64,000 bases of DNA. Source: Thermodesulfovibrionia bacterium (GTDB lineage Bacteria > Nitrospirota > Thermodesulfovibrionia > UBA6902). Below the pieces are notes generated by a model that saw only the letters and a program-made list of their open reading frames with translations, made no database searches and was not told the origin of the DNA. The stretch spans positions 48,712 to 112,711 of the forward strand of contig CAMYND010000005.1 of assembly GCA_947259645.1 (NCBI GenBank), in the 5' to 3' direction. The position numbers and the translations under genes were made by a program. Below are positions 6,570-22,627 of this stretch, one piece after another (position 1 is the first letter of the stretch; each line of letters starts with the position of its first letter).

Positions 6570-9053
6570 CTATGCTGTTTCAACCCTCACTACATCGGCG
6601 GAAGCTGCACTGGTAACCGAAAGATTCGTAAGGCTGCTTATCCCGCTGTGAGGGAAATGTGCCGGCACAAAAACAGTTCCCTCAGGAATTGCATCAGAGA
6701 CAGCGGCTTTAAGATAGACAGCTCCCAGCTTCGAAGTTACCTTGACGTGGCCGTGATCTGAAATGCTGAACCGTTCAGCATCTTCCTCGCTTATCTCAAG
6801 GAGTGCCTCGGAGGAAACAAGGTCAAGCGATTTCGACCTTGTAGACATGCTTCCGGCGTGCTGCAGTATATCTCTTATAACCATGTTTAAAGGGTACTGT
6901 TCATCCGTTTTTTCGCCGGCCTTGTAATCAACAGGGTGAAATCTTCGCGTTGCGGGCATTTCATCGCTATAGTTGTCCCGCAGTGAGTTTATTTCCCGGG
7001 CTATGTCTTTCCTGTCTTTTACGCCCATGTCCTTTCCCATGGTCTTTGCCAGGTTTGTCAGAATCTGCCAGTCAGGAAGGGCCTGCCCCGGAGGGTCAAC
7101 TACCCTTGCTACCCTTTGGGTGAGTCCTTCCGCATTCGTATAGGCTCCGTCTTTTTCCGCCCAGCCGGATGCAGGCAGTATAACGTGAGCATATTTTGCT
7201 GTTTCTGTTAACGCTATATCCTGTACAACCAGCAGGAATAGTGACTTCAATGTAGTAATAACCGCTGATTTATTGGGAAAGCCCACAAGGGGGTCAGCTC
7301 CCATAATGTAAAGAGCCTTGAGGGAGTAGGGTTCGTAAAGCATCTCATGCACGTTTTTCCCGGAAGTCCAGTATTTATGATGGAGCGGTCCCGCGTCCGG
7401 CCTTACTCCCATTTCGTACAGGCCAAATGTGTTGGAGTATTCTGCAGGAATCTGAAGGGCATCAGGGCTCTCGCCGAGAAGGTGAATCAGATTTGCTGCG
7501 GCCAGAACAGTATCCAGCCCCTTTATATTTTCAGAAATACCGAGAGAAAGGGTGATCATTCTCGTTTTGGCATTCACTAACGCCTCGGTAGCGGCAATGA
7601 GCTCTTCACTGGTAACACCCGTCAGTTCAGAAACTCTTTCAGGAGTATACTCTTTCAGTTTTTCCTCAAGAGCTGAAAACCCCTTAATGTCCGGGATATT
7701 TTTATTGCTGACAAGTCCTCTGTCCATCATGACCTTCATGATTCCGTTGAGAAGGGCGACACCTGTTCCCTGTTTTATTTGTGCCCACTGCGTGCTGTGT
7801 CTTGTTAACTTGGTCTCTCTGCTGTCAGCAACGATGAGCTTTGACCCCTCCCTTGTCGCCTGCAGGATGTTCAGGCCGAAAACAGGATGTGTTATGCTGA
7901 GATCGGACTCGATAACGAGGATTGCCTCTTTGCCGAGAGGTGACTTCAGATCGATCCTGTGTCCGGTCAGACCAAAGGCCATGTTCCAGGCCCTTTCTGC
8001 AAGACCGTAACCGAAGGAGGCGGAGGAATCGATGTTTTCCGAACCGACTGTGTTTCGCATAAATTTCTGAAAAATATAATTCTCCTCATTTGTACATCTG
8101 GGCGAGCCTATAGCTCCTATGGATGATGGGCCATAGGCATTTATGATGCTTTTCATTCTGTCGTTTATAGAATTCAGGGCTTCATCCCATGAAACTCTTA
8201 CATGCTCTCCCCCTTTGTTTATTATGGGGGAACTGAGGCGGTTATCACTGTATATATAGTCAAATCCGAACCTTCCTCTTCCGCACAGGTTCCCCTGGTT
8301 TACTCCCTTGTCCGGGCTGCCCTTTGCCCTCAGGATTTTCCCATCTTTTGTTCCCAGGGTGAGGGTGCAGCCGCAGCCGCAGAATGAGCATACGGTGTCC
8401 TTTTCCTCCAGTGACCATGGCCGTGCCTCGAATTTATGGGACTTGTTTAAAATGGCGCCCGTAGGGCACACATCAATGCACTGTCCGCAGTAATCACACT
8501 CCAGAACTTCGCCAAATGCCGGCTGCACAACGGTCGGGAACCCCCTCCCGATAAATCCGAGGGCTCCTTTCCCCTGGTGTTCTGCGCAGATACGCACACA
8601 TTTGCCGCAGAGTATGCACCTGCTGGAATTCAGTTCTACAAGGGGGCCTTTCGTATCAGGCCGTTCGTGGTTCCGTGCTCTTGCGAAACGCGTACGCGGG
8701 CTTCCGTACTCATAGGCCAGGTCCTGGACAGCGCATTCTCCTGCCTTGTCGCATACAGGACAGTCAAGAGGATGATGGACCAGCAGGAGCTCCAGTACTG
8801 TCTGGCGTATCTTTCTGACCTTCGGAGTTTCTGTCCAGACGGTAAGGCCCTCGGCTGCAAATGTTGCACACGATGCTTCAGGCTTCCTCCATCCCTCTAT
8901 CTCTACGACACATAACCTGCAACCGCCATGAGGCGCTAATCTCTTGTCATGGCAGAGATTGGGAATTTTTATGCCGTTATCCAGTGCCGCCTCCAGGATG
9001 GTATTTCCTTTTTTTGTAGTGACGGTTTGACCGTTAATTGTAAGTTCTACCAT
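6570..9053 (-). CDS. NuoG/FdhA-like iron-sulfur molybdopterin-fold oxidoreductase subunit (active-site Cys/Sec absent)
   Basis: [2Fe-2S] ferredoxin, HHPLDCPVCDKAGEC His-ligated cluster, two 4Fe-4S motifs (CILCGKCVRIC; CDYCGQCIDVCPTGA), CSFCGCGCTLTL plus molybdopterin-oxidoreductase fold. Confidence 0.88.
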   Translation of the reverse strand: MVELTINGQTVTTKKGNTILEAALDNGIKIPNLCHDKRLAPHGGCRLCVVEIEGWRKPEASCATFAAEGLTVWTETPKVRKIRQTVLELLLVHHPLDCPVCDKAGECAVQDLAYEYGSPRTRFARARNHERPDTKGPLVELNSSRCILCGKCVRICAEHQGKGALGFIGRGFPTVVQPAFGEVLECDYCGQCIDVCPTGAILNKSHKFEARPWSLEEKDTVCSFCGCGCTLTLGTKDGKILRAKGSPDKGVNQGNLCGRGRFGFDYIYSDNRLSSPIINKGGEHVRVSWDEALNSINDRMKSIINAYGPSSIGAIGSPRCTNEENYIFQKFMRNTVGSENIDSSASFGYGLAERAWNMAFGLTGHRIDLKSPLGKEAILVIESDLSITHPVFGLNILQATREGSKLIVADSRETKLTRHSTQWAQIKQGTGVALLNGIMKVMMDRGLVSNKNIPDIKGFSALEEKLKEYTPERVSELTGVTSEELIAATEALVNAKTRMITLSLGISENIKGLDTVLAAANLIHLLGESPDALQIPAEYSNTFGLYEMGVRPDAGPLHHKYWTSGKNVHEMLYEPYSLKALYIMGADPLVGFPNKSAVITTLKSLFLLVVQDIALTETAKYAHVILPASGWAEKDGAYTNAEGLTQRVARVVDPPGQALPDWQILTNLAKTMGKDMGVKDRKDIAREINSLRDNYSDEMPATRRFHPVDYKAGEKTDEQYPLNMVIRDILQHAGSMSTRSKSLDLVSSEALLEISEEDAERFSISDHGHVKVTSKLGAVYLKAAVSDAIPEGTVFVPAHFPHSGISSLTNLSVTSAASADVVRVETA

Positions 9054-11161: not shown

Positions 11162-11181
11162 CCGGCGGCCGGGGCCGCCGG
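11162..11181. repeat. GC-rich hairpin CCGGCGGC-cggg-GCCGCCGG
   Basis: Perfect 8-bp stem with a 4-nt loop between the REC-NuoE and NuoF genes. Confidence 0.8.
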
Positions 11182-11220: not shown

Positions 11221-11964
11221 TTAAGACTCCAGATGTCTCGATTTGATAAAACCGCTGACCTCATGAAATGCTTTCGTCCCTGTCATCCATTTCACGCTGT
11301 TCCATGCTCTTTCACATCCGCTTACATGGTGTGAAGTATGCTCAATCTCCGGTTCTGATCTGAAGCAGGAGTAAAAGGAAACAATGCTTCGTATTTCAGC
11401 GGGATGCATGTTCAGCCCGCAGGCGACACGTTTCTGTATCTCCGGCGGGATATAGCCGAATATCTCCTGGGTATGCATCAGTACCCGTATTGCACGGCTG
11501 GACATCTTCCCGTAGTGATTAATCACTTCATCCAGCTCTGCAAACATCTCTTCCTGGAACTTTTCTTCCTGGTCACTCTTTAAGGCATTCCTCCCGATCC
11601 ATGCTATTGCCTTGCCGGTGGCGTCTGTTAACATCTTCGGCTTGAGCGGTTTGCTCAGGTGGCTGACTACGCCGAGCTTCCTGGTCTCTTTAATTGTTTT
11701 CTTTAATGGATTCCCTGTCATCGCCACAATAGCAATACCCGGCCGGTACTGCCTCATCCACTGAATGAGAGTAATGCCGTCTATCCCTCGCAGTGAAAAT
11801 TCAGTGAAAACAAGGTCAAACATGTAATTCCTGATTTTGTGTATCGCCTCTTTTCCACTGAACACGCCTTCTACAAAATGGCCTTCCTGCTCCAGGGTTT
11901 TCCATGCGCTTTTAATAATTGCCGCGTCGTTGTCTACGACCAATATGTTGATGTGATCTTTCAT
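11221..11964 (-). CDS. Response-regulator receiver domain fused to NuoE (24 kDa subunit) N-terminal helical domain
   Basis: INILVVDNDAAII...LVAMTG/LSKPLKP receiver motifs, then AELDEVINHYGKMSSRAIRVLMHTQEIFGYIPPEIQKRVACGLNMHPAEIRSIVSFYSCFRSEP, typical of the NuoE N-terminus; the 2Fe-2S Cys set is missing. Confidence 0.8.
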   Translation of the reverse strand: MKDHINILVVDNDAAIIKSAWKTLEQEGHFVEGVFSGKEAIHKIRNYMFDLVFTEFSLRGIDGITLIQWMRQYRPGIAIVAMTGNPLKKTIKETRKLGVVSHLSKPLKPKMLTDATGKAIAWIGRNALKSDQEEKFQEEMFAELDEVINHYGKMSSRAIRVLMHTQEIFGYIPPEIQKRVACGLNMHPAEIRSIVSFYSCFRSEPEIEHTSHHVSGCERAWNSVKWMTGTKAFHEVSGFIKSRHLES

Positions 11965-12263: not shown

Positions 12264-12932
12264 TTAATAAATAGATTTAACGGCATGCATGAGGACATCA
12301 TGTGTGCCCTTTAACTGCAGCTTGATTTTTATGTGCTCTATATAGGTTTCAATGGTCTTGACACTGAGGTTGAGCTGCTCTGCTATTTTGTGTTTTTTTA
12401 GTCCCTGACCGATCAGTTGATACACTTCCAGTTCCCGGTTACTGAGGGGTTTTGTGGACGAATCGAAGGTTTCAAACTTGTTATTAACGAATTTATTGAG
12501 AAGGGTTACATTTAATCTGTCGCTCACGTATATCTCTCCACTGAGAACTTTTCTTATTGCTGCCAGCAGCTCTTTTGATGATTCCTGCTTCATGATATAG
12601 CCCTTTGCCCCTGATCTGAGGCATCGCTCTGCATATTCAGACTCATCATGCATGGAAAGAACCAGAATCATCAAAGCGGGATGAGAATACATCAGATTTT
12701 CGGTAAGCCTGATGCCGCTGCCGTCTCCAAGGCTGATATCGACTATTGCAATATCAGGTTTCGCATCTTCAATCGCCTGAGAAGCAGTGGAAACATTGTC
12801 CGCCTCTCCGCATACGACAAGGTCTTCTTCACTATTAATGAGATGTGCCAGTCCTTCCCGTACAATACAATGGTCTTCAACGATAAAAACTCTGTTCTTT
12901 TTAGTTTTGGTTCCGCTTTTTGAAGCCTTCAT
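12264..12932 (-). CDS. NarL/FixJ-family response regulator
   Basis: VFIVEDHCIVREGLAHLI...PDIAIVDISLGDGSG...LSNRELEVYQLIGQGLKKHKIAEQLNLSVKTIETYIEHIKIKL. Confidence 0.92.
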   Translation of the reverse strand: MKASKSGTKTKKNRVFIVEDHCIVREGLAHLINSEEDLVVCGEADNVSTASQAIEDAKPDIAIVDISLGDGSGIRLTENLMYSHPALMILVLSMHDESEYAERCLRSGAKGYIMKQESSKELLAAIRKVLSGEIYVSDRLNVTLLNKFVNNKFETFDSSTKPLSNRELEVYQLIGQGLKKHKIAEQLNLSVKTIETYIEHIKIKLQLKGTHDVLMHAVKSIY

Positions 12933-13113: not shown

Positions 13114-14970
13114 TTACGTGTTGTGCAGCGGAGTATGAATTTCATTAATATTCCTGGTTCCGCTGTCTTTCTCATCAGAAAAGACACATTCTACGATTGT
13201 CCCTGCGGTCTCATGGGGACGGATATCAATTGATGCATTTATCAGATCTGCCCGATATTTCATGATTTCAAGGCCCATACCGCTTGTCTGATTCAGCATG
13301 GAAAAACCCATGCCGTCATCTCTTACTGTTATGGTAATTATGTTTTCTTTCTTGCTGAGACGAATTTCGATCTTTTCGGGATGGGCATGACGGGCAGCAT
13401 TCGTAATGGCCTCTTGGACAATGCGGTAGATGTGTATCAATGCAGCCTTATTATTTAACTGAACAAATCTGCTGCACTGCAGGTCACAGGGTATCCCAAA
13501 GAGTTTTTCCGAATTAGACGCAAGTTTTACTATAGCTGTGGCCAGACTGTACTCATCTTCCTCAAACAAAGGAGCAAGGCCCAGTGAAAGGGACTTGACC
13601 TGAGTTTTTGACATCTCTATAAGGTATGAAATTCTCGCCGCATCTTCAGCCTCGGGAATTGATTTTTTCCGCAGACTGTTTTCCAGTCCCTTGCTCTTGA
13701 AGGATATGCCGGTAAGCTGCTGTCCCAGGTTGTCATGAAGGTCATGTCCAATACGCCGCCGTTCATGCTCCTCAATTTCAAGAATCGTTTTCTCAAGATG
13801 TTTGCGTTTGACTATCTCTTTATTCAACTCATCCCGGGACGCTGTAGTAATTTTTAGTTTTTCTATCATAAGGTCAAATGTCCTGGAGAGTTTGCCAATT
13901 TCATCTTGTGCAACAGTACCGACCTTATGGTCCAGGTCGCCGCTTCCTATTATTTCGCTTCCTCTATGCAATTTATTAATTGGATCTGAAATTGCTCGTG
14001 ATACAAAAAATGTATTTATTATCACTCCGAACAACGTCATAATTACAATGATTAGCATCCACTTTCTGAGTTTATAAATGGGGGAATAGGCTTCACTAAG
14101 GTCCTGCTTTGCTACAATTCCCCAGCCAGTAAGGGGAATATTCGTATAGGCGGCCAATGCCTTTTCCCCTCTGTAATCCCCCGTCTCGATGATTCCTGTT
14201 TTCCCAAGAGCTGCATCTACAGCCGGCTGTGACGTAATTTTCCGCATATGTGGTGTCTTTTCATACCACATCAAATCATTCAATGTTATGACATTTTTGT
14301 TCACCATAAATACCTCACCAGTCTTCCCGAATCCTGTCAGATTAAACACCACCTTACGCAGAGTTGCCTCAAGGTCAATGTTGGCAACGAGAATGCCGGT
14401 AATGTTGCTACTGTCAGCTGAGTTGAAAAGAGGCATGGACAGGGTCACGCCGGGCTTGTTTAACTTGTTGGAATAATTGGTATCTGAAATGGATACCCCT
14501 CCAGCCTGTAATTTCTCAGTGAGATGAATGTCTGTAGAACTGTTTTGACCTTCACTTCTTTTATCTGTGGAGACGATGATGGTTTTAGTAGATAAGCTGA
14601 CAATATGGATTTCATGGACGTCATCATATTTTTCAAGATATTTATTGAGAATGTCCCGGACATTTGAAACGGTTGTTGTACCTGCCGGGCTGCGGCCTAA
14701 TTTGTTAAGGGATATTTTATCCAGCATACCGATCTCTTTACTGCCGGCGATGGTGCGGATATCCGTTATTCTTTCATCAAGCCAATGATTTACTTCAATT
14801 ACCTTTTGATCCCTGACAGCCTCAATTTTATTAAACATTGACTGCTTTATGGAATTTACCATATGAATGTAAATTGCGATATTGACCATAATAAGAGGAA
14901 GCATAGCCATAATGAAAAACCAGAAGGTAAGGCGTGCTCTTATACTCTTAAATTGGAACCTTTTTCCCAC
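13114..14970 (-). CDS. Membrane sensor histidine kinase (Cache-like extracytoplasmic sensor, HAMP, HisKA_3, HATPase)
   Basis: N-terminal TM, periplasmic domain, second TM, HAMP-like segment, EHERRRIGHDLHDNLGQQLTGISFK, AITNAARHAHPEKIEI, DDGMGF. Confidence 0.9.
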   Translation of the reverse strand: MGKRFQFKSIRARLTFWFFIMAMLPLIMVNIAIYIHMVNSIKQSMFNKIEAVRDQKVIEVNHWLDERITDIRTIAGSKEIGMLDKISLNKLGRSPAGTTTVSNVRDILNKYLEKYDDVHEIHIVSLSTKTIIVSTDKRSEGQNSSTDIHLTEKLQAGGVSISDTNYSNKLNKPGVTLSMPLFNSADSSNITGILVANIDLEATLRKVVFNLTGFGKTGEVFMVNKNVITLNDLMWYEKTPHMRKITSQPAVDAALGKTGIIETGDYRGEKALAAYTNIPLTGWGIVAKQDLSEAYSPIYKLRKWMLIIVIMTLFGVIINTFFVSRAISDPINKLHRGSEIIGSGDLDHKVGTVAQDEIGKLSRTFDLMIEKLKITTASRDELNKEIVKRKHLEKTILEIEEHERRRIGHDLHDNLGQQLTGISFKSKGLENSLRKKSIPEAEDAARISYLIEMSKTQVKSLSLGLAPLFEEDEYSLATAIVKLASNSEKLFGIPCDLQCSRFVQLNNKAALIHIYRIVQEAITNAARHAHPEKIEIRLSKKENIITITVRDDGMGFSMLNQTSGMGLEIMKYRADLINASIDIRPHETAGTIVECVFSDEKDSGTRNINEIHTPLHNT

Positions 14971-17130: not shown

Positions 17131-17757
17131 ATGTCATTTAAAAAGATAATTTTCGCGATTTTTTTCATTGTCCTGCTCTTTATGGCCGGTCTGTTTTTTG
17201 CTGTACCTCAGCTTGCAGCCCAGACCCGAGACATCCTGATCGGGATATATGCTGCAGCCGGTCTTGTGCTCTGGGGGATACTCTCCCTTACTGTTTACGG
17301 GTTGGGTAAAAGCGCAGTAAAGAAGGTCACCGGGCCGAAAGAGAAGAGAGCTGCTCCGGCAAAGAAAACAGCCCCGTTTGATGAGAATGCGGTGCAGGTG
17401 TTCTCAATTTTACAGAGACGAGGACGGCTTATCGATTTTCTTAAAGAAGATATAGGTGTCTACGAGGACAGCCAGATCGGCGCTGCTGTAAGAAATATTC
17501 ATAAGGGGTGCAAAGAGGCTGTTGAAGAGTATGTGAAGATCGAGCCGGTCATGAGAGAAGCAGAGGGGGATGAGGTAACTGTTAAAGAGGGGTTTGATCC
17601 CTCAGGGATCCGTCTGACAGGAAATGTTAAGGGGAAACCGCCTTTTAAGGGTATTTTGAGACACTGCGGATGGCGTGTGTTAACCACAGATTTTCCACCC
17701 CTGCCGAAAAAACAGGACTTACGGGTACTGGAACCTGCGGAAGTGGAGATGGAATAA
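17131..17757 (+). CDS. DUF2760 family membrane-anchored protein
   Basis: Two TM helices then VQVFSILQRRGRLIDFLKEDIGVYEDSQIGAAVRNIHKGCKEAVEEYVKIEPV...LRHCGWRV. Confidence 0.75.
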   Translation: MSFKKIIFAIFFIVLLFMAGLFFAVPQLAAQTRDILIGIYAAAGLVLWGILSLTVYGLGKSAVKKVTGPKEKRAAPAKKTAPFDENAVQVFSILQRRGRLIDFLKEDIGVYEDSQIGAAVRNIHKGCKEAVEEYVKIEPVMREAEGDEVTVKEGFDPSGIRLTGNVKGKPPFKGILRHCGWRVLTTDFPPLPKKQDLRVLEPAEVEME

Positions 17758-17957: not shown

Positions 17958-19799
17958 ATGAACAAGAGCCGTTACATTGTTGGAATAGACCTGGGGACGA
18001 CAAACAGTGTTGTCTCATTTATTGATACAGAAGAGGAGACAGGAGGGGTTCCTCAAACTCACCTGCTGAACATTCCTCAGCTTACTGATGCTGGCGTTGT
18101 GGAAGGCCTGGAGCACTTACCGTCATTTTTATATATCCCCGGTGAGACTGAACTTCCGGAAAAGAGCCTTGACCTTCCCTGGTCGGACGATACCCCTTAT
18201 GTTGTCGGGAAGTTTGCGAGAAAGAGAGGGGCTGAAGTACCGCTGAGACTCGTCTCGTCAGCAAAGTCGTGGCTCTGTTATCCTGATATAGATAAGACTT
18301 CAGCCATACTCCCCTGGAATGCTCCTGAAGACGTATCAAAGATATCACCGCTTGACGCATGTGCCCGCTATCTGAAGCATGTTCGGATGGCATGGAACCA
18401 CACCATGGCAGGCGGTGAGTCCGGCTATTTTCTGGGGAACCAGGATGTATATGTAACGGTCCCTGCTTCATTTGATGCGGTAGCTCGGGAGTTGACAGTA
18501 AGGGCTGCTGACAAGGCAGGACTTCATGACATTACCCTCCTTGAAGAACCCCAGGCAGCATTTTATTCCTGGATCAATAAAAAAGATGAGACCTGGAGAG
18601 ACCAGATTAAAATCGGGGATGTTATTCTGGTCTGCGATATCGGGGGCGGCACAACAGATTTCAGCATAATAGAGGTCAAGGATGAAGGCGGAGAGCTAAC
18701 CCTAAATCGGGTCGCGGTAGGAGAGCATATCCTTCTCGGCGGTGACAACATGGATCTTACCTTGGCGTACTCACTCCGCAGGCACTTTACCGAGAGAAAG
18801 ATAAATCTCGATACCCGGCAGATGCTGGGCCTTATTTACAGCTGCAGGGAAGCAAAGGAGACAATGTTAAATGACCCGGACATCCGATCCCGGCCCATCG
18901 TAATACTGGGCAGGGGGAGAAGTGTTGTCGGCGGCACCCTTGAAACAGAACTGAAACGGGATGATATAGAAGAGACCATTCTCAATGGATTCCTTCCTGA
19001 ATGCAGCATTGATGAGATGCCCGTGGAAAAAAAGGCCGCTGGTTTCAGGGAGCTTGGACTCCAGTATGCAACAGATACCGCTGTTACCAGGTATCTCGCC
19101 AAATTTTTAAGGCAGAATGCGAACATGGATGAGGCTGATGGCGGGCATAAAACCGGCTTCATTCATCCGACAAAAATACTCTTTAACGGCGGAGTGACAA
19201 AAGCAGGTGCGATAGGCGGACGGCTTATTAATGTACTGAATAATTGGCTGGCCGCAGATGAAAGCTCCCCGGTAAGCATCCTTGAAGGTAGTGATCCTGA
19301 TACAGCAGTCGCTACCGGAGCAGCGTACTACGGCTTTGCGAAGCGAGAGAAGGGGATCAGGATAAGGGCAGGTGCGGGCAGGTCCTATTATGTAGGGGTC
19401 GAGACATCTATGCCCGCTGTTCCGGGTATGCCAGCTCCGCTGAAAGCACTCTGTGTTGTGCCTTTTGGCATGGAAGAGGGGACTGACTTTAAACTTGCGG
19501 AACAGGAATTCGGCCTCATTGTCGGTGAGCATGCTGAGTTCAGGTTTCTCTCTTCCCTTGTCTGTAAAGACGATGCCCCCGGCTCGGTAATAGAAGAGTG
19601 GGATGAGGGGGAGATAGAGGAACTTGCCCCCCTGGAGACCACTCTTCAGGCCGCGGGCATGGAAACAGGAGCGCTCGTTCCGGTCAAGCTCCACAGTTAC
19701 CTTAACGAGATCGGGGTCCTGGAGCTCTGGTGTGAGGCCTCGGACGGTTCAGGCCGGTGGAAACTTGAATTTAATGTGAGAGAGGAACATATTGATTGA
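17958..19799 (+). CDS. Hsp70-family protein (paralogue 1)
   Basis: YIVGIDLGTTNSVVSFIDTE, VTVPASFDAVARELTVRAADKAGL, LEEPQAAFYSWI, VCDIGGGTTDFSI, LFNGGVTKAGAI. Confidence 0.92.
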   Translation: MNKSRYIVGIDLGTTNSVVSFIDTEEETGGVPQTHLLNIPQLTDAGVVEGLEHLPSFLYIPGETELPEKSLDLPWSDDTPYVVGKFARKRGAEVPLRLVSSAKSWLCYPDIDKTSAILPWNAPEDVSKISPLDACARYLKHVRMAWNHTMAGGESGYFLGNQDVYVTVPASFDAVARELTVRAADKAGLHDITLLEEPQAAFYSWINKKDETWRDQIKIGDVILVCDIGGGTTDFSIIEVKDEGGELTLNRVAVGEHILLGGDNMDLTLAYSLRRHFTERKINLDTRQMLGLIYSCREAKETMLNDPDIRSRPIVILGRGRSVVGGTLETELKRDDIEETILNGFLPECSIDEMPVEKKAAGFRELGLQYATDTAVTRYLAKFLRQNANMDEADGGHKTGFIHPTKILFNGGVTKAGAIGGRLINVLNNWLAADESSPVSILEGSDPDTAVATGAAYYGFAKREKGIRIRAGAGRSYYVGVETSMPAVPGMPAPLKALCVVPFGMEEGTDFKLAEQEFGLIVGEHAEFRFLSSLVCKDDAPGSVIEEWDEGEIEELAPLETTLQAAGMETGALVPVKLHSYLNEIGVLELWCEASDGSGRWKLEFNVREEHID

Positions 19800-22627
19800 A
19801 AGAACCAAGATACATTATCGGAATAGATCTGGGGACTACAAACTCAACGCTGTCCTATATAGATACCGAAAGTAAAAGCCCAAAGGAAATTCAGGTTTTT
19901 CAGATACCTCAACTGGTTGACGATGGGCTTCTGAATAATCTCAGCGCACTTCCTTCCTTCCTTTACCTCCCCGGAGAATATGAGCTGCCTCCGGAAACCG
20001 CAGAACTTCCCTGGAAGGGAGAGGGGAAAGGGATTGTGGGAGAACTGGCACGAAAGCAGGGGGCGAAAGTGCCTGCGAATCTGGTTTCCTCTGCCAAGTC
20101 CTGGCTCTGCCACAACCGCGTCGACCGGAATGGTCTGATTCTCCCATGGGGCAGAGAGACCTCAGCAGAAAAAGTCTCTCCTGTAGACGCCTCGTCGAGC
20201 TATCTCAGGCACCTGAAGGAGTCATGGAATTTTAGCATGGCCGGAGGGAATGAAGACAGGTTTCTGGAACATCAGCAGATTATCATAACCATACCGGCAT
20301 CATTCGATGAATCAGCCAGAGAGCTCACAGCTGAAGCCGCACAACGGGCAGGGATTGAAGACTTTACCATGCTTGAAGAGCCTCAGGCCGCATTTTACGC
20401 ATGGATATCATCCCATCACGGAAGCTGGCAGGAGATGACAGGAAAAGGCAGGCTGGTCCTTGTGTTCGATGTTGGTGGCGGGACAACAGACTTTACCCTC
20501 ATCTCAATCCATGACGAAAGTGAAAGGCCTTCTTTTCAGCGTGTTGCCGTTGGTGATCATATAATGCTTGGCGGAGACAATATGGACCTTACCCTTGCCA
20601 GAAAGATTGAACAGGACCTGATGGGTAGTTCAGGAAAGTTTGATTTCAATCAGTGGCTCTCTGCAACGCATCAGTGCCGCGCTGCAAAAGAGGAACTTCT
20701 CGGCGGCTTACAAAAAGAGAGTGTTGCCATATCTGTACTCGGGAAAGGCAGGAGCGTCATCGGCGGTGCCCGCAAATCTGAACTTACAGCAGCCCGGGTA
20801 AAAGAGACGATCATCAACGGATTTTTTAAAAATGTAGAGAAAGGCGAAGAACTTGAGAAAGGGAAGGCTGCCGGCCTCCAGGAACTTGGTCTGCCTTTTG
20901 AAGCTGATACAGCGATAATGAAGCATCTTGCTTCATTCCTGAAACGGCACGCTGTGAACAGGGAATTAGCCCAGGTGAGTGACAGTGGGAGCGGTACGGC
21001 CATTGTCCGGCCTGATATAGTTCTCTTTAACGGGGGTGTTTTTAAATCACCGGTTATACGGGAACAGGCAGTGTCCATAATCAGGGAGTGGTTTGCTGAT
21101 GGAATGTGGTCATTGCGAATTCTTGAAAATAATCAGTTTGACCAGGCAGTCTCGATCGGGGCTGCCTACTACGGTCTCGTATTGCGAGGAGATGGTGAAC
21201 GCATATCCGGAGGAATAGGCAAAGCCTATTATATAGGTGTGGAAAGATCCTGTGAACAGACAGATCCGGGATTGAGTAATCCTCTGACCCTTGTCTGTAT
21301 TGTCCCTCGGGGAGTTGAGGAAGGCGAGGAAATTCATCTTTCCCAGCCCGAATTCCAGATCATGACAAACAGTCCTGTAAGCTTTACCCTGTATTCCTCA
21401 AGTTACAGGGCCGGGGACAGGACCGGGGATGTTATTACAGCTGAACAGGCAGAGTTCATTGAGCTCCCGCCGGTCAGGACAGTGCTGCACTATGGCAGAA
21501 AAACAGGCTCTATCAGGATTCCCGTGTCCCTCGGGGTACGGCTCAATGAGTTCGGTACTCTCGATGTATGGTGTGAATCAAAAGAAACAAACCATCGCTG
21601 GAAACTCGCTTTTCAGCTGCGGAAAGAGGTAGAGGGGGAGTTTGTAGCGTTGCAGGATAACGGGCTTGAGCATACCCTTGATGAATCCGCGATAGCCGGG
21701 GCAATTGCATTAATGGAAGGGGCCTTTAACAGCTCTCCCCGAACATCTGCCGAAGTGACACCTGAAAACCTGATTAAGAAAATGGAACAGCTGCTGGACC
21801 TGGACCGGAAATCCTGGCCGCTCTTTGCCATAAGGAAAATGTGGGATGCCCTGATCAGGCTCAAGGAGAGACGGAAAGCCTCAGCCATGCATGAGTCCCG
21901 TTGGCTGAATCTCACAGGGTTCCTGCTCCGCCCCGGATTTGGCTATGAACTTGATGATATGAGAATCAGGGAGCTCTGGAAAATATTTCTGGCAGATCTC
22001 CAGTTTGCCGGAAACGGCCAATGCAGGTCAGAATGGTGGATACTCTGGAGGCGTGTTGCCGGTGGATTTGAAAGATCCAAACAGGACATCCTGTATAGAA
22101 AAATAGCGCTCTGGCTGAAGCCGTCAAAGAAAAAACAGAAGAAACTGTCGCCAGCTGAAATAACAGAAATGTGGATGCTCGCTGCCAGCCTTGAAGACAT
22201 CTCACCTGAAGACAAAGTGGCCATTGGCAGTGAACTGGTCAAGAAACTGAAAAAGTCTAAAGACAAATCTCTGGACCAGTATCGCTGGGCTCTCTCCAGG
22301 ATCGGTGCCCGGCTCCCTTTTCATGGTTCAATTGAAAACATTGTTCCTGTCGGGACGGTAGAGAAGTGGATTGAAGCGTTACTCAATGAGCATTGGCCCA
22401 ATCCCAAAAGCGCGGGCTACGCCCTTACCCAGCTTTCACGGAAAACAGGAGACAGGACCAGGGACATTAATGAAGACTTGCGTTCCCAGGCAGTGAATCG
22501 ACTCTCTGAATACAGCTGGTCAGGCCACTATATTAAACAGGTACAGGAAGTCATTGCGCTGGAAAAGGAAGAGGAAAAAGATATTTTCGGAGAGTCCCTC
22601 CCCGCAGGACTTTTCATTGAAAACTGA
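19796..22627 (+). CDS. Hsp70-family protein with long C-terminal extension (paralogue 2)
   Basis: YIIGIDLGTTNSTLSYIDTE, ITIPASFDESARELTAEAA, VFDVGGGTTDFTL, LFNGGVFKSPVI; TTG start overlaps the previous stop (TTGA). Confidence 0.92.
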   Translation: MKEPRYIIGIDLGTTNSTLSYIDTESKSPKEIQVFQIPQLVDDGLLNNLSALPSFLYLPGEYELPPETAELPWKGEGKGIVGELARKQGAKVPANLVSSAKSWLCHNRVDRNGLILPWGRETSAEKVSPVDASSSYLRHLKESWNFSMAGGNEDRFLEHQQIIITIPASFDESARELTAEAAQRAGIEDFTMLEEPQAAFYAWISSHHGSWQEMTGKGRLVLVFDVGGGTTDFTLISIHDESERPSFQRVAVGDHIMLGGDNMDLTLARKIEQDLMGSSGKFDFNQWLSATHQCRAAKEELLGGLQKESVAISVLGKGRSVIGGARKSELTAARVKETIINGFFKNVEKGEELEKGKAAGLQELGLPFEADTAIMKHLASFLKRHAVNRELAQVSDSGSGTAIVRPDIVLFNGGVFKSPVIREQAVSIIREWFADGMWSLRILENNQFDQAVSIGAAYYGLVLRGDGERISGGIGKAYYIGVERSCEQTDPGLSNPLTLVCIVPRGVEEGEEIHLSQPEFQIMTNSPVSFTLYSSSYRAGDRTGDVITAEQAEFIELPPVRTVLHYGRKTGSIRIPVSLGVRLNEFGTLDVWCESKETNHRWKLAFQLRKEVEGEFVALQDNGLEHTLDESAIAGAIALMEGAFNSSPRTSAEVTPENLIKKMEQLLDLDRKSWPLFAIRKMWDALIRLKERRKASAMHESRWLNLTGFLLRPGFGYELDDMRIRELWKIFLADLQFAGNGQCRSEWWILWRRVAGGFERSKQDILYRKIALWLKPSKKKQKKLSPAEITEMWMLAASLEDISPEDKVAIGSELVKKLKKSKDKSLDQYRWALSRIGARLPFHGSIENIVPVGTVEKWIEALLNEHWPNPKSAGYALTQLSRKTGDRTRDINEDLRSQAVNRLSEYSWSGHYIKQVQEVIALEKEEEKDIFGESLPAGLFIEN

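Follow-up and report, generated by a model that had tools for sequence, protein, structure and literature searches.

The locus described here encodes P0001, a protein in which a response-regulator receiver is joined to part of a NuoE-type subunit, next to genes for NuoF- and NuoG-type proteins. It raises the question of what such a protein can do for an electron-transferring complex when both its cluster-binding domain and the usual phospho-acceptor of its receiver are missing. The window, i.e. the whole stretch of 64,000 nucleotides that was analysed, carries the gene in an operon with the order histidine kinase, NarL-type regulator, P0001, NuoF/HydB-type subunit (P0002) and NuoG-type subunit (P0003) (Table 1).

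Table 1. Positions of the P0001 operon and its parts in the window
Feature	Positions	Strand	Basis
NuoG (BfuA)-type subunit P0003, formate-dehydrogenase-like domain	6570..9053	-	Pfam, PDB matches, alignment
NuoF/HydB (BfuB)-type subunit P0002	9154..11094	-	Pfam; PDB match HydB; conserved Cys kept
Perfect GC-rich hairpin between P0001 and NuoF genes	11162..11181	.	Place of the HndB-like gene in sister loci
Receiver-truncated NuoE subunit P0001	11221..11964	-	247 aa, ATG start; purifying selection
P0001 clade-specific tail, residues 207-247, in place of [2Fe-2S] thioredoxin domain	11224..11346	-	
P0001 N-terminal helical domain of NuoE/HydC type (residues 136-206), which probably docks on NuoF	11347..11559	-	Pfam, model
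P0001 receiver domain, residues 1-122	11599..11964	-	Response_reg match, structure, residue comparison
P0001 Glu55 codon GAA, phospho-acceptor position	11800..11802	-	Alignment and codon comparison
NarL-type response regulator (Response_reg + GerE)	12264..12932	-	Pfam; conserved in sister loci
dCache-HAMP-HisKA_3-HATPase histidine kinase	13114..14970	-	Pfam; conserved in most sister loci

Domains and fold of P0001

A Pfam profile search finds Response_reg (PF00072; residues 7-115, E 3.2e-19) and 2Fe-2S_thioredx (residues 145-218, E 3.5e-13), the latter match covering only positions 2-72 of the 145 in the profile. Receivers are also the PDB and NCBIfam matches of the N-terminus, while residues ~130-215 match NuoE, HoxE, formate dehydrogenase gamma or HydC in the same two collections. 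The helical half covers positions 2-75 of TIGR01958 (NuoE), and the PDB sequence matches of residues 138-213 are HydC/NuoE proteins (7p5h_C, E 2.7e-8; 6hlm_A, E 3.5e-7).

The AlphaFold model of P0001, built on a 37-row alignment (mean pLDDT 85.5), reveals a complete (beta-alpha)5 receiver, for which Foldseek gives a TM (target) of about 0.9 with solved receivers (0.93 with 3crn_A), so that both the fold and the profile of a receiver are present. A NuoE domain of four helices follows (residues 138-201), and the tail is modelled as two lower-confidence helices, 211-222 and 232-244, with no thioredoxin sheet anywhere in the model. P0001 has the N-terminal helical domain of the NuoE/HydC/BfuC 24-kDa subunit and lacks the thioredoxin-fold domain with its four [2Fe-2S] cysteines. 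In the alignment of the 12 truncated proteins of this kind, three of the four cluster columns contain no Cys at all and the fourth contains Cys in two proteins only. By eye, neither a frameshift nor a hidden remnant of the thioredoxin domain is recognizable in the translated 127-bp junction 3' of P0001. The initial annotation had proposed an N-terminal receiver, the helical half of NuoE and the loss of the four cluster cysteines, and all three proposals are borne out: the first by the Response_reg match and the modelled fold, the second by the half-profile match and the four-helix model, and the third by the half-profile match together with the alignment to full-length homologues.

Distribution, single origin and selection of the truncated gene

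The receiver-NuoE fusion is not peculiar to P0001 and is widespread in Thermodesulfovibrionia. Among 396 genomes of the phylum, the listed full-length receiver-NuoE matches all belong to this one class of the Nitrospirota, and the listed matches elsewhere in the phylum start at query residue 126 or later, without the receiver. In a scan of named genomes, those of the best 80 hits that fall outside Nitrospirota cover a single domain region, in most cases that of the receiver. P0001 has the features that define the receiver-NuoE of the class, namely an N-terminal receiver on NuoE encoded beside HydB/NuoF and NuoG genes. We found no papers on a receiver-NuoE/HydC fusion in the open-licence literature; the wider literature may differ.

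The 110 full-length homologues compared (a set that leaves out row L199) keep the four cluster cysteines wherever that region is present, and 106 have an intact phosphorylation quintet, which is lost in L227, L228 and L229 and carries a Thr to Ala change in L074. The former three, full-length proteins from distant families, have Tyr, His and Asn in place of the acceptor Asp and retain the cluster cysteines, so receiver decay happens also without loss of the cluster domain.

The truncated form is represented by 12 genes in 11 of the 37 genomes of the window's family and was found only there. On the tree these genes form a single clade (support 100/100) that requires one change and is nested among the full-length proteins, and the NuoFs of the truncated operons form a matching clade (100/100). 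Rather than an isolated oddity, P0001 is a paralogue derived from the intact receiver-NuoE subunit that occurs across the class. The alignment and the tree indicate that loss of the cluster domain is common to the clade and that decay of the receiver came after it, unevenly. The histidine kinase-NarL pair is conserved with the truncated operons, and the cluster cysteines seen in the intact operons are retained in their NuoF and NuoG proteins, with the exception of one Cys to Ser change in one sister NuoF.

An intact receiver-NuoE of 290 residues, 46% identical to P0001, is encoded on contig 9 of the same genome, with the acceptor Asp and all four cluster cysteines. The best PDB match of its NuoE half is 7t2r_C, the BfuC of NiFe-HydABCSL (E 7.8e-43); the AlphaFold model of a full-length homologue is weak (pLDDT 76.7, pTM 0.44). 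The contig-9 operon encodes a HAMP-HisKA kinase, a receiver, DRTGG and PHP proteins, a small HATPase, a receiver-GcvH fusion, the receiver-NuoE, an HndB-like 2Fe-2S protein, NuoF/HydB and a NuoG-like protein. Next to it, in divergent orientation, lies a complete operon for complex I that includes a NuoE, a NuoF and a NuoG, and on this ground we reject the receiver-NuoE as complex I's own NuoE; the intact protein most likely serves as C subunit in a separate complex of the Bfu/Hnd type. The receiver-GcvH/lipoyl-like gene (L038:10668-11432; Response_reg 1.7e-28, GCV_H 2.9e-7) lies directly upstream of the intact receiver-NuoE here and, among the other class members with operons read, is present in most.

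The operons of the sister genomes differ from that of the window in gene content. NfnA-like, GltA/NfnB-like and HndB-like genes occur in the truncated operon of most sister genomes, and all three have been lost from the window operon. In L039-L049 the NfnA-like and GltA/NfnB-like genes lie between the NarL regulator and the truncated receiver-NuoE, which suggests an NADP-linked complex. In L048 and L049, the two most basal truncated loci, a tandem pair of receiver-AraC-like regulators additionally separates the NarL regulator from the NfnA-like gene (L048:4173-5817, L049:11835-13610). The hairpin of the window, which has no clear T-run and was not seen in the sister junctions examined, could have been left behind by the loss of the HndB-like gene or be a site of RNA processing or attenuation. 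Elsewhere in the window, two tandem Hsp70/DnaK-like ATPase genes of 613 and 943 residues were recognized by eye (17958-22627), preceded by a DUF2760 gene (17131-17757) in an arrangement that looks like a chaperone-like cluster.

Pairwise comparisons give omega values of about 0.27-0.32 for P0001 against its nearest orthologues and of 0.07-0.32 for the truncated gene across the clade, against about 0.03-0.05 for the full-length homologues (measurable pairs; many pairs are saturated) and about 0.05-0.06 for the partner NuoF. Values for the tail are 0.11-0.66 between orthologues, and in the window lineage it is the least constrained part (0.55-0.66). The truncated gene is under purifying selection, constrained but relaxed. 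The faster evolution of the truncated gene relative to the full-length copies and the loss of the HndB-like and NfnAB-like genes from the window operon are what a decaying duplicate without function, or a sequencing artefact, might produce, but the reading frame is open in all 12 genes from 11 genomes, omega is well below 1 with the receiver and helical regions included, and that of the partner NuoF is about 0.05. We regard decay or artefact as very improbable, and the omega values together with the 12 open genes likewise disfavour a pseudogene.

The phosphorylation pocket

The quintet positions of P0001 read D11, N12, E55, T83 and K105, and the complete DD-D-T/S-K quintet is not present. Glu55 sits at the end of beta3 in the model, in the phospho-Asp site, and the receivers aligned to P0001 among the PDB sequence matches have Asp at precisely this position, so a true acceptor Asp elsewhere is refuted and the earlier placing of a Glu at the acceptor position stands. 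The pocket residues had also been described as present, which holds for the Thr and the Lys but not for the acidic pair, of which only Asp11 remains beside Asn12; the Asp-Asp pair is found in all 52 full-length homologues of one set and in 108 of the 110 of another.

Within the truncated clade, ten of the 12 receivers still have the acceptor Asp. Tree mapping assigns the Asp to Glu replacement to two independent changes, in P0001 (codon GAA) and L013 (GAG), with Asp codons GAT/GAC in L012/L015, and the change of the second Asp to Asn to a single event shared by P0001 and L009-L012; L014 shows a Thr to Ala change. The notion of Asp to Glu as a conserved trait of the family is rejected by its occurrence in two of 12 truncated and none of 110 full-length proteins. 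All three replacements (the second acidic Asp to Asn, acceptor Asp to Glu, Thr to Ala) are common in pseudo-receivers, Glu being the commonest substitute in Asp-less receivers generally, and Glu at the acceptor position activates some receivers and not others (PMC12632262).

The initial annotation took Glu55 for a classic phosphomimetic. A true phosphomimetic would lock the receiver in its active form, and the NuoF-NuoG complex would then always be in the state that the ancestral subunit brings about on being phosphorylated. The double origin of Glu, with no other Asp replacement in the truncated clade, the retention of T83 and K105 in P0001 and the partial activation of many receivers by Glu (PMC12632262) are consistent with such a role; Asn as the second Mg2+ ligand of P0001 and the Asp kept by most of the clade argue against it, and we consider it unlikely. 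Since the window's branch already has Asn in place of the second Mg2+-binding acid, the domain is not a clean phosphomimetic and, judged by its residues, classes as a pseudo-receiver under the definition of PMC12632262. Bacterial pseudo-receivers likewise lack quintet residues, but the P0001 receiver is carried by a redox-enzyme subunit and has neither a DNA-binding nor an enzymatic signalling output domain. Phosphorylation of the P0001 switch is probably no longer possible. Some of the ten truncated receivers that keep the acceptor Asp could be phosphorylatable, and for this reason we argue for loss of phospho-control in the window's branch only.

The partner subunits and the missing C1 domain

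P0002 consists of an N-terminal 2Fe-2S thioredoxin-like domain, FMN and NADH_4Fe-4S domains and a C-terminal 2x[4Fe-4S] domain (Pfam), and the additional thioredoxin-like domain and the two-cluster ferredoxin domain are typical of BfuB. Its best PDB match is HydB (7q4v_B, E 3.8e-234; also 7t2r_B, 8.1e-230), making it closer to the HydB of electron-bifurcating hydrogenases than to the NuoF of complex I, and all conserved Cys columns are filled, so that it has the FMN domain and cluster ligands of a BfuB. The neighbour had been called NuoF-like; it is of the NuoF type, but the name says too little for a HydB/BfuB-type protein with cluster motifs and a NuoG-type partner. This neighbour and partner imply that the cluster missing from P0001 corresponds to the C1 gate of a bifurcating core.

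The partner, P0003, matches formate dehydrogenase alpha and NuoG in the PDB and keeps all conserved cysteines, as expected of a BfuA-type partner with Fe-S domains. The stretch IDSSASFGYG, which we take from the Sec/Cys motif of formate dehydrogenases to be the catalytic position, has no Cys in P0003 or in 20 homologues, and the TIGR01591 score of 462 bits is below the cut-off of 666. We reject P0003 as an active formate dehydrogenase because the catalytic Cys/Sec is missing.

P0001 shares the helical NuoE domain with BfuC/HydC/HndA of the Bfu (HydABC) enzymes (PMC9304861, PMC8880783; 7t2r_C, 7q4v_C, 8a6t_C), as well as the gene order C-(HndB-like)-B-A and a BfuB/HydB partner with cluster motifs. 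It differs from them in its N-terminal receiver and in the loss of the C1 domain with all four cysteines; the words "receiver" and "response regulator" do not appear in PMC9304861. The N-terminal helical half is also homologous to NuoE of complex I, from which P0001 is set apart by the lack of an N1a-type cluster, by the receiver fusion and by the separate complex I operon in the genome. In NiFe-HydABCSL, C1 resides in the mobile C-terminal domain of HydC and swings between the FMN and the B2 cluster (PMC8880783). It is the proposed gate for low-potential electrons (PMC8880783, PMC9304861), and its conservation is reported for every Bfu enzyme (PMC9304861); HoxF, which does not bifurcate, has no such cluster in its homologous part (PMC8880783). 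P0001 has no C1 [2Fe-2S] cluster of this kind.

As the gate domain is lost and the helical domain kept, we favour, on balance, a reading in which P0001 has a structural role, independent of phosphorylation, in a second Bfu-type NuoF-NuoG complex that arose by duplication and lacks the C1 gate; a structural or adaptor role on the neighbouring NuoF-like protein, with putative docking on it, is the most likely one. The ancestral subunit of the class would have combined the receiver, the NuoE helical domain and the [2Fe-2S] thioredoxin domain carrying C1. The latter would have been lost once, from an operon copy in one family, and the phosphorylation chemistry then lost too in the window's branch, with the second Asp changing to Asn and the acceptor Asp subsequently to Glu. 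The helical domain would dock on NuoF/HydB and complete or stabilize the complex, while the pseudo-receiver may serve as a fixed structural or interaction module without a phospho-switch. Without C1 the gated route to ferredoxin would be missing and transfer would run mainly from NADH through NuoF (FMN) to NuoG; alternatively, bifurcation by the window complex would need another 2Fe-2S protein. Control may act at the level of expression, a task that has probably passed to the neighbouring histidine kinase/NarL pair.

A possible supplier of the cluster, and evidence against the structural reading, is the separate HndB-like 2Fe-2S protein encoded beside the truncated gene in sister loci. If this thioredoxin [2Fe-2S] protein provided C1 in trans, from the same operon in sister loci and from the contig-9 operon in the window genome, the complex would still bifurcate, and it is consistent with this that the cluster ligands of BfuB are kept, the ferredoxin-side ones included. 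The HndB-like gene, however, neighbours intact receiver-NuoE genes as well and so did not originate as a replacement, and we reject it as a C1 substitute created with the truncation. Moreover, the two HndB-like sequences read have three cysteines and not four, and the gene has gone from the window operon and is kept only at the other locus, which leaves supply in trans doubtful. A further alternative is that the truncated subunit changes places with the intact receiver-NuoE in the NuoF-NuoG complex of contig 9 and so turns bifurcation off. The docking domain is the same, one genome holds both copies and the dedicated kinase/regulator pair could time the expression of P0001, but the P0001 gene occurs together with NuoF and NuoG genes of its own and has diverged in step with them, which a dedicated complex explains better; we think competition of this type improbable.

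For a receiver that acts on a redox complex, the nearest functional precedent found is Rv3143, the orphan response regulator of mycobacterial complex I, a receiver-type protein that is bound to the NADH dehydrogenase and modulates it by protein contact rather than by binding DNA (PMC9274095). In contrast to P0001, it is a stand-alone protein of an unrelated lineage that binds NuoD, is not fused to NuoE and keeps its putative phospho-Asp (PMC9274095).

The intact class-wide fusion is a more interesting lead than the window gene itself, and its presence throughout the other members of the class suggests that two-component control of bifurcation at the protein level can occur. More specifically, though only as a tentative proposal, the intact receiver-NuoE may be a post-translational bifurcation switch, in which the co-encoded kinase would phosphorylate the BfuC receiver and thereby control the mobile C1 gate; the window gene would be a C1-less, phosphorylation-blind derivative in an ungated NADH dehydrogenase. 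The co-encoded kinase for such a switch in the window genome is the HAMP-HisKA protein with a CxxCH haem-c-like motif. This kinase of the intact operon (L038:14505-16091) has in its sensor part the haem-c-type motif CTGCH, together with an atypical CSTAACH, which suggests a sensor of redox state or of a gas. If true, a bifurcating enzyme would be under direct two-component control without transcription, with a natural deletion of C1 alongside. The Bfu mechanism as proposed rests on the C1 gate, and here evolution took exactly that domain while the ligands of the other cofactors stay; the two NuoF-NuoG complexes of this one genome would therefore test the gate model directly.
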